DNA from: an uncultured Erysipelotrichaceae bacterium
Lineage (GTDB): Bacteria; Bacillota_I; Bacilli_A; RF39; UBA660
Reading direction: 5' to 3'
NCBI GenBank assembly: GCA_902784095.1
Contig: CACZTK010000014.1
Location: 1 to 32,698 of the forward strand
Length of the DNA stretch: 32,698 nucleotides
Each line of letters begins with the position of its first letter. Position 1 is the stretch's first letter. The position numbers and the translations under genes were made by a program. Below the pieces are notes generated by a model, which ran no database searches, was not told the origin of the DNA, and saw nothing but the letters and a program-made list of their open reading frames with translations. Of this stretch, positions 2,255-24,285 are shown one piece after another.

Positions 2255-3667
2255 ATGAGATTTATTGGTAAAATATTTAGTTTAGTTTTAACGGTATTAT
2301 TCTTCATTACTATGTATTTAATATATAGGTTGAATATTGTACCTACTAAGTACTTATTAGTAATTGGTGTTATTTTATTAGTATTTGTTTTAATATTTGA
2401 TTTAAAACTAATAAGTAGAAGAACTAGACTGGGAAAAAGAATTTTTTATATATTTTTATCTAGTATATTTATAGGTTTAATTATTTATTTATTAACATAT
2501 ATTAATGCTACATATGATTTTATGAATAATATGGTATTTAATAAATTAGAAATAATTACTTATGATATAGTAGTAGATAAATCCTCATCATATAAAAAGA
2601 TAAAAGATCTATCTGGTTTAAATATGGGATATTTAGATAGTGATAAGAATTATTCTAAGTTAAAACTATTAATTAGGAAAGACATTAGATATGAAGAATA
2701 TTATTATAAGAATATTAATAGTATGATTAATTCTTTAGAAGAAGAGAAAAATAATTCTATTATAATAGAAGACAATTATTATGAGGCTTTAAAAGAAGAA
2801 TATGATTATTTAAATGATAATACAAAGGTTATTAAGAAATATAAACTTATTGTAAAGAAAGAAAATAAAAAAGAAGTAAAGGCAAGTACTGATAAGCCAT
2901 TTATTGTATATATTAGTGGTATTGATACTTATGGAAAAATATCTAGTGTCTCAAGAAGTGATGTTAATATAGTAACAGTTGTTAATCCAGTTGAAGAGAA
3001 AATACTATTAGTATCTATTCCTAGAGATTATTATGTTTTGCTACATAAAAACAATGAGAAAGATAAACTTACTCATGCGGGATTATATGGTATTGAAGAG
3101 AGTATGAATACTATAGATGATTTATTAGATATTAAGATTGATTATTATTTAAGACTTAACTTTTCTACAATGACTAAGAGTATTGATTTATTAGATGGTG
3201 TTGATGTTTATTCAGATATGACATTTAATCCAACTGCAAAACCTTCTATAACTATTAAAGAGGGAGTTAATCATATGGATGGGGAAATGGCACTAGCATT
3301 TGCTCGTGAGAGATATCAATATAGAACAGGGGATAGACATAGAGGACAAAATCAACAAGCAATAATAACAGCAGTTATTAAAAAGATGAGTAATCCAAGT
3401 GTAATTGTAAAATATAAAGATTTATTAGATTCTTTAGATGGTACTTTTGAAACTAATATGGATTATAAGAATATTACAAACTTAGTTAAACGACAACTTG
3501 ATAAAAATATTGATTGGGATGTAGAATCAATTAGTTTAGATGGAAAAGGTAGTATGATGCCTACATATTCAATGGGATCTAGAAATTTATATGTAATGAT
3601 TCCTGATGAGAAAACAATTGAAGTTGCTAAAGAAAAGATTGATGAAACGTTAAAGGGTGATGAATAA
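2255..3667 (+). CDS. LytR-CpsA-Psr (LCP) protein with CpsA-type accessory domain
   Basis: LCP enzymes transfer polyprenyl-linked glycopolymers (teichoic acid, capsule) onto peptidoglycan outside the membrane. Three membrane segments are visible (about residues 8-26, 33-50 and 64-83). A roughly 100-residue extracellular accessory region follows, with a D-I-V-V-D-K-S-S-S-Y then D-L-S-G pattern, and the LCP catalytic domain starts near residue 216 (ISGIDTYG, RSDVN, SIPRDYYV, FARERY, GDRHRGQNQQ). Three helices plus an accessory domain is the architecture of streptococcal CpsA/Wzg, rather than one-helix TagTUV. The conserved arginines and the acidic pocket appear intact. The next gene starts one base after the stop. 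Confidence 0.88.
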   Translation: MRFIGKIFSLVLTVLFFITMYLIYRLNIVPTKYLLVIGVILLVFVLIFDLKLISRRTRLGKRIFYIFLSSIFIGLIIYLLTYINATYDFMNNMVFNKLEIITYDIVVDKSSSYKKIKDLSGLNMGYLDSDKNYSKLKLLIRKDIRYEEYYYKNINSMINSLEEEKNNSIIIEDNYYEALKEEYDYLNDNTKVIKKYKLIVKKENKKEVKASTDKPFIVYISGIDTYGKISSVSRSDVNIVTVVNPVEEKILLVSIPRDYYVLLHKNNEKDKLTHAGLYGIEESMNTIDDLLDIKIDYYLRLNFSTMTKSIDLLDGVDVYSDMTFNPTAKPSITIKEGVNHMDGEMALAFARERYQYRTGDRHRGQNQQAIITAVIKKMSNPSVIVKYKDLLDSLDGTFETNMDYKNITNLVKRQLDKNIDWDVESISLDGKGSMMPTYSMGSRNLYVMIPDEKTIEVAKEKIDETLKGDE

Positions 3668-3668
3668 T

Positions 3669-4265
3669 ATGAAGAAAGTATTAGTGTATGGGGATTCTAA
3701 TACTTGGGGAGATAATTTTATTACAAGAAAAAGATCTACTAGTTGGGTTGATTTATTAAGAAATGAGTTAAGTGACTATAGTTTTATTTGTGAAGGATTA
3801 CCAGGTAGGGTAGCTGGTTCATTGGAAATAGATAATTCATATAAAAATGGAAAAGATACTTTTATTTCAGTATTCTTATCTGCTGCTCCTGTTGATATTG
3901 TTATTATTGCTTTAGGTAGTAATGATTTACAAAATAAGTATAATAGGAGTAGTAGAGAGATAGTTAAAGATTTACTTTGGTATGAGGACATTATTTCTGA
4001 TATGGCAAGAGTTGAAGATAATTATAATAGATATTTCAAGGAAGATAAAATTCCTGAGTTTATTTATATTTTACCAACTAATTTTGAGTATATTGAAGGT
4101 GTTTTTGATAAGAGTAGTGAATTAAAAAGACAAGAAATAATTAGTTATTTTAGGAATAGTGATAAAAAAATTATTGAAGTAAATGATATGTCGTTAGTAG
4201 ATGGACTTCATTATAGTGAAGAGGGTCATAAGAAAATGGTTAAACTAGTAAAAGAAATAGTCTAA
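3669..4265 (+). CDS. SGNH/GDSL-family hydrolase (esterase)
   Basis: A 198-residue SGNH-fold esterase. Block I is VYGDSNTWGDN with the nucleophilic Ser, the Gly block is EGLPGRV, the Asn block is ALGSND, and the C-terminal catalytic dyad is DGLHYSEEGH. No signal peptide is seen, so it is probably cytoplasmic. In-frame GTG (3657) and ATG (3660) codons exist upstream, but GGGTGA at 3655-3660 is the ribosome site for the ATG at 3669, one base after the LCP stop. Co-transcription with an LCP protein hints at removing or handling acyl groups on envelope glycans; the substrate is unknown. Confidence 0.82.
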   Translation: MKKVLVYGDSNTWGDNFITRKRSTSWVDLLRNELSDYSFICEGLPGRVAGSLEIDNSYKNGKDTFISVFLSAAPVDIVIIALGSNDLQNKYNRSSREIVKDLLWYEDIISDMARVEDNYNRYFKEDKIPEFIYILPTNFEYIEGVFDKSSELKRQEIISYFRNSDKKIIEVNDMSLVDGLHYSEEGHKKMVKLVKEIV

Positions 4266-20907: not shown

Positions 20908-21117
20908 ATGATGAAATTAGATATTCAATTATTTGCAGTTCCATTTCGTAAAGTTTCTAAAACTAGAAAAAGAACTAGACAAGCACATAAGGCAATGACA
21001 GCTCCAGGTATGATAAAATGTCCTACTTGTGGTGAAATGATTAAGCCACACAGAGTTTGTAAACATTGTGGAAGCTACAAAAAAGAAACAGTAGTTGAAG
21101 TTAAGGAAGCAGAATAG
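20908..21117 (+). CDS. rpmF: 50S ribosomal protein L32 with N-terminal Prp-type leader
   Basis: L32 core is clear: [20 protein letters not shown] and a zinc ribbon CPTCG ... CKHCG. Standard L32 starts M-A-V-P-F. Here the ORF instead begins MMKLDIQLF directly before AVPF. There is no start codon at the A-V-P-F point, and AAGGAG is placed for the ATG at 20908 (20911 is a possible alternative), so the extension must be translated. It closely matches the L27 N-terminal signal L-N-L-Q-F-F/A cut by the Firmicute protease Prp; cutting after L-F would leave exactly A-V-P-F. Cleavage is inferred. The upstream in-frame GTG belongs to the ribosome site. Confidence 0.95.
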
Positions 21118-21131
21118 TCTGCTTTTTTTTT
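21107..21131 (+). terminator. rpmF terminator
   Basis: AAGCAGA and TCTGCTT form a 7-bp stem with an ATAG loop, followed by a run of T. The loop contains the rpmF stop codon. Confidence 0.87.
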
Positions 21132-21197: not shown

Positions 21198-23273
21198 ATG
21201 AAGATTGTTTTACAGGATGGTATGAAAGATTGTGGAATATGTTCACTTCTATCTATTATTAAGTACTATAATGGTAATGCTTCAAAAGAATATTTAAGAG
21301 AGATTACTAATACGACTAAGGATGGTGTAACGGCATATAGCTTAATTCATGCAGGAAAAAAACTAGGATTTAATACTTTTGCATTAAATGGAGAATTAGA
21401 AGAAATTAATTTATCTAACCTACCATGTATTGCTCATGTAATTATAAGTAAATCATATCAACATTTTGTAGTAATATATGAGATTAATTTTAAAACTAAT
21501 AAAGTTATTATTATGGATCCTGCTAAAGGAAAAAGAATTCTTTCTATTTCTGAATTTAAACTTATGAGTAGTAATAATTATTTATTCTTTATTCCAAATA
21601 AAAAATTACCGGTATTAGTAGATAATAAAATAATAAAGACAACTATCGAAGAATTTTCAAAGAATGATAAGAAAAGTATATTATTAATTATAGTTTTAAC
21701 TCTTCTTTATTTTATATTTAATATATTATCAGCTTTTCATTTTAAGTATTTACTAGATTTTGCGATAGCATATAGAATAAGTTATAATGTATGGCTTATC
21801 AGTTTTATTGTTTTATCCATCTATATAATAAAGGAAATAGCACTCTATTTAAGAAGTATTTTGTTAACTAAATATAGTAGTTTATTAGATTATCTTATTA
21901 CAACTAAGATATATAAACAATTAATATTACTTCCGTATCTTTATTATAAAAATAGGACAACAGGAGAAATAATTTCTAGGATGAAAGATTTAACTGTGAT
22001 TAAGAATCATATTATTAGACTTTTTACTGTTATTACTATTGATATAGTCTCTTGTTTAATTTTTATAATACTTCTATTCAATATAAATATTATTCTAACA
22101 TTACTTTCATGTGTATTATTTATTTTTTTAATAGTAATTAATTTAACTCTTAAAAAGAAATATAATAATAAACTTAGAAAGTATTATAGGAAGGAGGAAA
22201 AGTTAAATTCATATTTAATTGAGTCTTTATCAAGTGTTGATGTAATAAAGGGAATGCATACAGAAAAAATAACTATAGATAAGTTAAAAATTAAATATCA
22301 AAATTTTTTAGAATCTTTATATAGTTTATCTATACATCAAGAAACTCATTCTTTTATTACTAGAGGCATTAATAATGTATTTCAAATAATAATTCTTGGA
22401 TTTGGAAGTTTTTATGTTATTAGAGAAAGAATTAGTTTAAGTGAATTAATTATTTATCAAAGTATCTTAAATTTTCTTAATAATTCAATTAATAATGTAG
22501 TGGGGCTACTCTATGATCATACAAATTTTAAATTAGCTAAAGAAAGAATTGAGGATTTATTTAATATTAGAAAAGAAAATTTTGTAGGTAGCAATTATTA
22601 CAGCAGTATTAATTTAACTGGTAGAATTGTTTATGATAATTTAAATTATTCTTATAATAATAATTTAATTCTTAATAATGTAAATATTGTAATTAATCCA
22701 AAAGAAAAGATATTTTTATGTGGCCCAAGTGGTTCAGGTAAAAGTACTTTTGTTAAATTATTAATGAGATATTTGGATGTTAACTATGGACAATTAAAAA
22801 TAAATAATATTGATATTAATCATTATCATCTAGATGTATTAAGAAATAGAATTACTTATGTTTCTCAACAAGAATTTCTTTTTACAGATACATTATATAA
22901 TAATGTTACTCTTCATAAAGATTATAAAGAAGAAAAAGTAAAAGAAGTACTTAAGCTTATGTTAGTAGATGAATTTATAAAAGATGATATTTCTTATAAT
23001 AAATTAGTAGAAGAAAATGGATTTAACTTTAGTGGTGGTGAGCGTCAAAGAATAATTCTTTCACGAACAATTCTGAAAGATAGTGATATTTATATATTTG
23101 ATGAAGCATTGAGTCAAATAGATATTGAAAGAGAAAGAAAGATACTAAAAAATATTTTTAAATATTTAAAAGATAAGGTGGTTATTGTAATATCTCATAG
23201 ATATGATAATAAAGATTTATTTGATAGAATTATTGAAATTAGAGATGGAAAGCTAAATGAAAAAGAACTATGA
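21198..23273 (+). CDS. Peptidase-containing ABC transporter (C39, PCAT) for GG-leader peptides
   Basis: Cleaves double-glycine leaders in the cytoplasm and exports the mature peptide. The N-terminal C39 peptidase is intact: Gln6, Cys12 in DCG, His89 in QHFVV and Asp107-Pro108. Six membrane segments span about residues 155-440. The ATPase has Walker A GPSGSGKST (near 509-517), the signature FSGGERQR (near 610) and a degenerate Walker B YIFDEALSQID with Glu present, then the H-loop ISHR. Length is 691 residues, normal for the family. AGGAGG sits 4 bases before the ATG, and TAATAT (21178-21183) is a weak -10. Two GG-leader precursors lie at the end of the same operon. Confidence 0.93.
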   Translation: MKIVLQDGMKDCGICSLLSIIKYYNGNASKEYLREITNTTKDGVTAYSLIHAGKKLGFNTFALNGELEEINLSNLPCIAHVIISKSYQHFVVIYEINFKTNKVIIMDPAKGKRILSISEFKLMSSNNYLFFIPNKKLPVLVDNKIIKTTIEEFSKNDKKSILLIIVLTLLYFIFNILSAFHFKYLLDFAIAYRISYNVWLISFIVLSIYIIKEIALYLRSILLTKYSSLLDYLITTKIYKQLILLPYLYYKNRTTGEIISRMKDLTVIKNHIIRLFTVITIDIVSCLIFIILLFNINIILTLLSCVLFIFLIVINLTLKKKYNNKLRKYYRKEEKLNSYLIESLSSVDVIKGMHTEKITIDKLKIKYQNFLESLYSLSIHQETHSFITRGINNVFQIIILGFGSFYVIRERISLSELIIYQSILNFLNNSINNVVGLLYDHTNFKLAKERIEDLFNIRKENFVGSNYYSSINLTGRIVYDNLNYSYNNNLILNNVNIVINPKEKIFLCGPSGSGKSTFVKLLMRYLDVNYGQLKINNIDINHYHLDVLRNRITYVSQQEFLFTDTLYNNVTLHKDYKEEKVKEVLKLMLVDEFIKDDISYNKLVEENGFNFSGGERQRIILSRTILKDSDIYIFDEALSQIDIERERKILKNIFKYLKDKVVIVISHRYDNKDLFDRIIEIRDGKLNEKEL

Positions 23274-23664
23274 ATATAATGGTTTATTAGTATTTGTTAT
23301 TTTGCTATATATTTTAGTTGTTATTTTTGTGATACTTACATATTTTACTAAAACTTATCGTAGTTATAATCTTATTAGTGTAATTGTAGTTACTGATAAT
23401 TATGTTAAAACTTATGTTGATAATAAAACCTTCAAGAAATTAAAATCAACTTCAAGATTTTATATAGATGATAAAATATATGATTATGAAATAATTGAGA
23501 TAGAGAAAAATGTTATGAAAAGAAAAAATATAAATTATCATGAGGTTTTATTAAAAACTAAGTTTCCTAATAAATATAAAGATAATGATAGTATAGATGT
23601 TAGTATATATGGTAATAAAAAGAAGGTATACAGTATGTTTAAAAAATGTTGGGAGAGTGATTAA
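23257..23664 (+). CDS. Small membrane accessory protein, mini-HlyD-like (tentative)
   Basis: A 135-residue protein overlapping the transporter gene by 17 bases. One membrane helix (about residues 9-30) is followed by an about 100-residue extracellular beta-rich, lysine-rich region. It sits where GG-peptide operons usually carry an HlyD-type membrane fusion protein of 400 residues or more. The pattern Y-V-K-T-Y-V-D-N-K then F-Y-I-D-D-K-I-Y-D-Y recalls the beta-barrel part of those adaptors without the coiled coil or lipoyl domains. An immunity protein for the two peptides is the main alternative. The start has only a modest GGAAAG ribosome site. No family is recognised with certainty. Confidence 0.6.
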   Translation: MKKNYEYNGLLVFVILLYILVVIFVILTYFTKTYRSYNLISVIVVTDNYVKTYVDNKTFKKLKSTSRFYIDDKIYDYEIIEIEKNVMKRKNINYHEVLLKTKFPNKYKDNDSIDVSIYGNKKKVYSMFKKCWESD

Positions 23665-23808
23665 ATGCAAAAAATAGAAGAAGAAAAGTTAAAAGAAATT
23701 GAAGGAGGTTTTTCAGCAGTTGTTGGTATTGCTATAGTGTCTGCTATTATGTTTATTTCAGGAATAATAGAGGGAATTGTATCTCCTAGGGGGTGTCATA
23801 ATGAATAA
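23665..23808 (+). CDS. Double-glycine leader peptide 1 (bacteriocin-like precursor)
   Basis: A 47-residue ORF starting directly after the accessory gene's stop, with GGGAGAG as ribosome site. The leader is 15 residues (MQKIEEEKLKEIEGG) with the classic L-x-x-I-x-G-G end. The 32-residue core starts F-S-A-V-V, is hydrophobic and helix-prone, has a GxxxG motif (G33 to G37), and ends G-C-H-N-E with one Cys at 44. It fits one half of a class IIb two-peptide bacteriocin, but the calculated side-chain charge of the core is about -1, whereas such peptides are usually cationic. A signalling peptide is possible. Confidence 0.8.
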   Translation: MQKIEEEKLKEIEGGFSAVVGIAIVSAIMFISGIIEGIVSPRGCHNE

Positions 23809-23974
23809 TATAGAAAAAGAAAAACTTAATAATATAGTAGGAGGAAGTAGTGATATATCTGCTCCAATGATTAATGCAGTACTAAGTGTTGTAAAATTGC
23901 TTGTTGATGCTGGTAGGGATTTAGGAAGTGCTTTTAGAAGGATAGCAGAGGGTAATTTGTGTCCACTTGAGTAG
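23801..23974 (+). CDS. Double-glycine leader peptide 2 (bacteriocin-like precursor)
   Basis: A 57-residue ORF overlapping peptide 1 by 8 bases; AGGGGGTG at 23788-23795 selects the ATG at 23801 over an upstream in-frame start. The 15-residue leader MNNIEKEKLNNIVGG shares M-x-x-I-E-x-E-K-L-x-x-I-x-G-G with peptide 1. The 42-residue core is amphipathic, has GxxxG (G38 to G42), one Cys at 54 and ends C-P-L-E. Both cores therefore carry a lone Cys four residues from a C-terminal Glu. Paired leaders, overlap and GxxxG motifs point to a two-component peptide. No dedicated immunity gene follows; rpsU is next. Confidence 0.82.
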   Translation: MNNIEKEKLNNIVGGSSDISAPMINAVLSVVKLLVDAGRDLGSAFRRIAEGNLCPLE

Positions 23975-24023
23975 GTTTTGCATATAATATCAATAAATTA
24001 TGTAAAAAACTTGTCAAAAATTC

Positions 24024-24052
24024 TTGAAAAATAATGGAATCTTTGTTATACT
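24024..24052 (+). promoter_or_regulatory. rpsU promoter
   Basis: TTGAAA (24024-24029), 17 bases, TATACT (24047-24052). The expected transcription start falls inside the small palindrome 24051-24065. No terminator is seen between the peptide operon and this promoter, so read-through into rpsU is possible. Confidence 0.72.
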
Positions 24053-24084: not shown

Positions 24085-24285
24085 ATGGCAACTCAAGTAA
24101 CTGTAAAAAATGGTAACCTAGATATGGCTTTAAGAAAATTTAAGCAAAAAGTAGCTAGAGATGGAGTCCCTTCAGAGTGTAAAAAAAGAGAATGTTATGA
24201 TAAACCAGGAGTAAGAAGAAGAAACGCTAAAAAAGAAGGAATTAAGAATTCTAGAAAAAGAAATCGTGCAAATAGAGACAACTAG
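24085..24285 (+). CDS. rpsU: 30S ribosomal protein S21
   Basis: A 66-residue, lysine/arginine-rich small-subunit protein. Family features are VKNGNLDMALRKFKQKV, a K-R-E-C-Y-D-K-P segment (canonical R-E-x-Y-E-K-P) and a basic tail. AGGGAGGG at 24071-24078 selects the ATG at 24085; the in-frame ATG at 24034 lies within the promoter and is rejected. It is a single-gene unit with its own promoter and terminator. Confidence 0.95.
   Translation: MATQVTVKNGNLDMALRKFKQKVARDGVPSECKKRECYDKPGVRRRNAKKEGIKNSRKRNRANRDN

Follow-up and report, generated by a model that had tools for sequence, protein, structure and literature searches.

The window, the whole stretch of 32,698 nucleotides analysed here, carries four genes on the + strand in the order exporter, accessory gene, pepA and pepB, and a check of its open reading frames found every one at the coordinates given in the earlier note. 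The exporter, a PCAT of 691 aa (positions 21198..23273) with C39, ABC_membrane and ABC_tran domains, is followed by an accessory protein of 135 aa (23257..23664) with an N-terminal TM helix and a beta-barrel-like domain (AlphaFold). The precursors pepA (47 aa, 23665..23808) and pepB (57 aa, 23801..23974) both consist of a leader, residues 1-15, and a core, and match their profiles at 1.2e-20 and 1.9e-25, respectively. pepB starts at the ATG at 23801 and shares 8 nt with the end of pepA; the 65-aa ORF with a TTG start in the ORF list is an upstream extension of pepB. TGA as a stop codon would fit the RF39 lineage (PMC7301438).

On the upstream side, an intrinsic terminator with an 11-bp stem and a T tract lies 3′ of rpmF (21103..21128, + strand), terminator-like sites being found twice against 0.2 expected. 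On the downstream side, an extended -10 promoter-like site conserved in relatives (24024..24052, +) precedes rpsU (24085..24285, +), placed by the ORF and neighbourhood survey in the flank, outside the system. Since it is framed by this terminator and by the promoter-like site of rpsU, the operon is probably an independent unit. We examined 104 distinct loci, mostly with 36-68% exporter identity, 94 of which have at least 1.2 kb of downstream DNA. rpsU lies downstream of the operon in 62 of these 94, the operon is placed elsewhere in about one third of loci, and rpmF is found upstream in the window's genome only, among the loci inspected. The operon had been described earlier as wedged between rpmF and rpsU; the rpsU side recurs, whereas the rpmF side is local with a terminator in between, and we dropped the wedge as a meaningful context. 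At some distance from the operon, inspection of positions 1174-2208 showed an HTH and ImmA/IrrE-like metallopeptidase protein with a HELAH motif.

The exporter is intact, as first reported: the Pfam domains C39 (PF03412, 3.8e-32), ABC_membrane (6.3e-27) and ABC_tran (3.5e-25) are all present, C39 is fused to the ABC membrane and ATPase domains as in the definition of a PCAT, and the C39 Cys/His/Asp, Walker A/B and FSGGERQ can be read in the protein. It is the sole C39 protein in the window's genome, an 82%-complete assembly. With 357.8 bits against TIGR01193 (cut-off 523.85) and 311.8 bits against NF045998 (Mbov_0121; cut-off 500 bits), it stays below both thresholds and is not an equivalog of the latter by score. 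The small accessory gene was likewise confirmed as a 135-aa ORF, and the AlphaFold model of its product (pLDDT 89.7) displays a beta domain besides its single TM helix. While a Pfam search of the accessory family gave nothing useful, 8 of 19 relatives match NF045999 (MAG1140), the best at 1.7e-8 and the window protein at 9.5e-4, and the protein is a distant relative of this Mollicutes family. Its matches to the membrane fusion proteins MacA, BesA and Spr0693 are weak, and its identity as a proven membrane fusion protein was not established, no PDB fold match falling under 0.001; it may be a minimal fusion-protein-like export helper. At one locus (L106, G129:C16) the accessory gene is absent, pepA begins 35 nt after the exporter and the peptides are kept, so the accessory protein would be dispensable there.

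The two overlapping short ORFs with shared 15-residue GG leaders were found again in about 100 loci. In the window the leaders MQKIEEEKLKEIEGG and MNNIEKEKLNNIVGG match the consensus M-x-x-I-E-x-E-K-L-x-x-I-x-G-G proposed for them, and the pepA and pepB leaders are related to each other (E 3.9e-9). Adjacent precursor genes with double-glycine leaders and a GxxxG in both cores, two of the features by which class IIb is recognized, are thus both present. The pepA core, FSAVVGIAIVSAIMFISGIIEGIVSPRGCHNE, is a hydrophobic TM-like helix of 32 aa with GxxxG, a Pro and a Cys; the pepB core, SSDISAPMINAVLSVVKLLVDAGRDLGSAFRRIAEGNLCPLE, is an amphipathic helix of 42 aa with GxxxG, RR and a Cys. Calculated monoisotopic masses are 3285.73 Da for the pepA core, 4396.32 Da for the pepB core and 7680.03 Da for a heterodimer joined by a disulfide. 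Both lengths, both GxxxG motifs and the lone Cys of each peptide agree with the initial description. Across 86 loci, the hydrophobicity of pepA cores equals that of TM helices (median KD 2.46) and pepB cores are amphipathic (median moment 0.68), and a structure model of pepB, of moderate confidence, predicts one long helix that spans residues 21-49 and contains GxxxG. The cores had also been called near-neutral or slightly acidic, which is correct for the window, with a single GxxxG, a single Cys and a net charge of -1 in each; this acidity is local, the median charge of pepB cores over the 86 loci being +1.5.

Conservation within the cores points to the Cys and its position. GG, both GxxxG glycines, a Pro and the Cys are invariant in the pepA alignment (30 rows), as are GG, the second GxxxG Gly, an Arg and the Cys in that of pepB (33 rows), where the first GxxxG Gly is conserved in at least 90%. 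A Cys is present in every core of the 86 loci; exactly one occurs in 82 pepA and 84 pepB cores. It stands 7 residues after GxxxG in pepA (82/86 loci) and 12 residues after it in pepB (80/86); the tail that follows the Cys is of variable length, 0 to 5 residues. The twin C-x-x-E end that had drawn attention to the pair turned out to be a coincidence: it occurs in 3/86 pepA, in 19/86 pepB and in both peptides in 3/86 loci, which rules it out as a shared signature. The family signature is the fixed GxxxG-to-Cys geometry, and this fixed spacing makes an intermolecular pepA-pepB disulfide plausible.

Existing family models capture little of these peptides. In several relatives pepA exceeds or approaches the cut-off of TIGR03949, a class IIb model (23.6 and 25.4 against 21.5 bits where it is exceeded), in alignments that span the leader and part of the core; the window pepA stays below all cut-offs of the bacteriocin families. 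pepB never exceeds the cut-off of a class IIb model, matching by its leader only, and its core gave no family match. No solved relatives of pepA or pepB were found except carnobacteriocin B2, which matches weakly in the leader, and a literature search limited to open-licence papers found none linking RF39-type Bacilli to such a system.

Exporter homologues occur in 370 of 386 sampled genomes of the window's own family at E<=1e-40, the weak end of these matches including ABC exporters without C39. Among the 94 loci with sufficient downstream DNA, pepA lies beside the exporter in 91 and pepB in 89, in the order exporter-accessory-pepA-pepB. Relatives with the transporter and without either ORF, which the earlier note held to be damaging to its proposal, did not appear among these, as the five loci that lack an adjacent pepB carry it elsewhere. 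Both peptides lie 3 to 9 kb from the exporter in genomes G362, G082 and G295, and in G264 pepB is found 1.2 kb beyond pepA. In G292 (L122, G292:C3), the exporter-adjacent pepA ends before the conserved Cys and pepB is on contig C43; this could be a decaying system. In another genome (G045:C2:22886-23304) two pepB-like matches flank a pepA match, possibly a pepB duplication.

Profile searches matched pepB in 51 of 54 and pepA in 19 of 19 family genomes. Outside the family, pepB matches were obtained in 7 of 341 genomes, limited to the leader and the start of the core, and pepA in 1 of 373, by its leader only; none was found for pepB in 72,556 plasmids. Sixteen family genomes were picked for the absence of a strong exporter match or of pepB: pepB is present in all four that have a C39 domain (E<1e-20) and in none of the remaining 12, a split with an exact probability of 1/1820. 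Since exporter and peptides co-occur even when unlinked, the system is kept or lost as a whole. It is wholly absent from the well-assembled genomes G153, G157 and G225 and is therefore not essential. The operon thus appears to be a near-universal trait of the family, with essentially none outside.

A maximum-likelihood tree of 88 exporters, in which 71 rows from 24 multi-member genera were labelled, requires 23 genus-label changes, the minimum for 24 genera (shuffled mean 60.2). Each genus thus forms a single group, and descent at the genus level is vertical. Over 86 loci, the pepA and pepB cores have mean pairwise identities of 43.2% and 44.3%, against 41.2% in the exporter and 27.0% in the accessory protein. 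For the cores, dN/dS in the 30 closest pairs lies mostly at 0.02-0.3, which is similar to the exporter and lower than in the accessory protein, values to be read with short sequences, non-independent pairs and some dS near saturation in mind. The pair formed by the window and L003, its closest relative, ranks among the highest of these 30 pairs at about 0.4; in none of them was diversifying selection on the cores seen. The cores are under purifying selection and as conserved as the exporter.

Most relatives carry one gene more. A third small gene 3′ of pepB, counted by position and motif because its profile drifted into pepB, is present in 57 of 91 loci when a strict rule is applied and in about 64 (~70%) when shorter forms are included. 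It encodes ~50-60 aa and overlaps the stop codon of pepB, in most cases by 12-15 nt. Its product lacks a GG leader, contains a single hydrophobic helix and ends in GxxxGxFxR, similarly to pepB. In hhalign it matches pepB at E 1.5e-4; kinship with pepA was rejected (E 0.29). Short immunity proteins adjoining bacteriocin gene pairs are documented, such as CbnZ (42 aa, one TM), BrcI (53 aa) and AbpIM (55 aa) (PMC6957408), and for the GIP of gallocin A immunity by mimicry of the bacteriocin peptides has been proposed (PMC10100652). By analogy in size and topology, the third gene is a candidate immunity gene. In the window, a clean deletion relative to L003 and L033 leaves a scar at 23975..24000 (+) and keeps the rpsU promoter region; the loss in this lineage is recent. 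The gene was not found elsewhere in the window's genome, an incomplete assembly (control 8/8), and an operon-borne TM immunity protein, another feature of class IIb, is absent from the window and this genome. The remark that no immunity gene is present is thus accurate for the window, whereas some 64 of 91 relatives hold a candidate that the window has deleted. Presence of the third gene switches 14 times along the tree, with the peptides retained, and it is missing in ~30% of loci. If it confers immunity, such repeated loss would imply peptides without strong toxicity to their producer, or a resistance that is readily acquired.

The reading we favour, with a probability of about 0.55, is a class IIb-like system for the export of two peptides, inherited vertically as a standard trait of the family and likely antagonistic. 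The anatomy behind the original class IIb reading (GG pair, PCAT, accessory gene, GxxxG twice) is conserved; the bacteriocin nature is less certain given family-wide vertical fixation, purifying selection on the cores and repeated loss of the immunity-like gene, a combination unusual for a bacteriocin. PCATs cleave the leader after GG and export the peptide. From its domain content, the exporter would remove the 15-residue GG leaders and export both peptides, assisted by the membrane-anchored accessory protein. Outside the cell, the hydrophobic pepA, of membrane-spanning length, and the amphipathic pepB would pair via their GxxxG faces, and the Cys residues 7 and 12 residues past GxxxG would probably join the C-termini by a disulfide. 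The formation of this bond is not assured in an anaerobic habitat, and no oxidoreductase is found in the operon. By comparison with class IIb, the pair would most likely insert into and permeabilise the membranes of susceptible neighbours; such antagonism is likely by analogy and is the weakest step of the explanation. In relatives, the third gene would confer protection on the producer as a mimic of pepB that blocks pairing, and the window strain, having lost it, would have to be insensitive by other means.

A tentative alternative is that the pair is a core secreted factor, a disulfide-linked heterodimer acting on its own kind as a pheromone or kin signal, or as a part of the producer's own membrane or envelope. 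This would agree with its near-universal presence in the family, its absence elsewhere and strictly vertical descent at genus level, with a single copy whose cores are under purifying selection as strong as that of the exporter, and with the many losses of the immunity-like gene while the peptides were retained. Mollicutes, moreover, keep a related PCAT and accessory gene between core genes. Yet no receptor or response regulator is adjacent, nor is any regulator or receptor linked to the operon, two co-dependent GxxxG helices suit membrane insertion better than receptor binding, and G153, G157 and G225 live without the system. More speculative still is the specific version in which a clade-defining GxxxG disulfide heterodimer serves the producer's physiology or communication, with a PCAT and MAG1140-type machinery that predates the split between the family and Mollicutes.

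An ordinary, horizontally acquired class IIb locus of the kind seen in lactic acid bacteria would account for the gene set and the motifs, but we consider it unlikely and reject it, since 23 changes for 24 genera on the exporter tree are the least possible, the 72,556 plasmids hold no pepB and the only pepA match outside the family, in 1/373 genomes, is confined to the leader. A reading of the two short ORFs as non-genic or as decayed remnants, with only the exporter of importance, is very improbable in spite of their shortness, the deleted third gene and the weakest pepA constraint in the window and L003 (dN/dS about 0.4), as frame, leader, GxxxG and Cys are intact, profile matches reach 1e-20 and 2e-25, relatives show purifying selection, and recurrence in ~100 loci with low dN/dS excludes chance ORFs.

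A family of uncultured small-genome gut Bacilli thus seems to maintain a single conserved pair of exported peptides, mostly missed by gene callers and family libraries, which is new in sequence, class IIb-like in anatomy and surprising in its evolutionary behaviour. If it is antagonistic, it represents a bacteriocin under stabilising, not diversifying, selection and offers ~100 natural variants of a fixed architecture for structure-function work; if not, the anatomy of two-peptide bacteriocins serves something else. The peptides are short enough for synthesis, and their function is testable without culturing the producer.

The Mollicutes PCAT/MAG1140 system (NF045998, NF045999) likewise places an exporter beside a one-TM accessory protein of ~125-135 aa; its GG-leader candidates, of 92-137 aa, are far from the exporter and form no pepA/pepB pair. 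In the translations of three Mollicutes-like loci (L157-L159), an Mbov_0121-related C39 exporter and a ~125-aa one-TM protein are flanked by rimP-like and ybeY-like genes, a striking context of housekeeping genes. The start of the 92-137 aa GG-leader proteins, GG-x-x-SGALLNGhxxIhK, aligns with pepB residues 1-34 (E 8.7e-9 against pepB, largely by the leader). Read with TGA as W, their ORFs are at 3827-4111 (-) in L164, 4170-4583 (+) in L165, 3539-3931 (-) in L166, 3996-4280 (+) in L168 and 3637-3915 (-) in L169, and they are possibly unlinked substrates of the Mollicutes PCAT.

With class IIb bacteriocins (lactococcin G, plantaricin S/EF/JK, carnobacteriocin XY; TIGR03949, NF038034), the system shares two GG-leader peptides, GxxxG twice, a dedicated PCAT, an accessory gene and, in most relatives, a downstream small TM protein. 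Antimicrobial activity in class IIb requires both peptides, with little or none from either one by itself; for the present pair the analysis shows co-conservation of the two. Class IIb bacteriocins described so far tend to be patchy and diverse, whereas the present pair is vertical, family-wide and conserved, with near-neutral cores and a dispensable immunity-like gene. Most known class IIb peptides are also devoid of Cys (PMC10100652), whereas each peptide here has one that is invariant. Gallocin A, brochocin C, thermophilin 13 and ABP-118 come nearer, with few charges, Cys in both peptides and a mimicking immunity peptide (PMC10100652). Gallocin peptides nevertheless have two Cys each, which form intramolecular disulfides in helical hairpins, the feature that defines the gallocin A subgroup; the peptides described here are probably single helices, and one Cys per peptide leaves an intermolecular bond or free thiols as the sole options.
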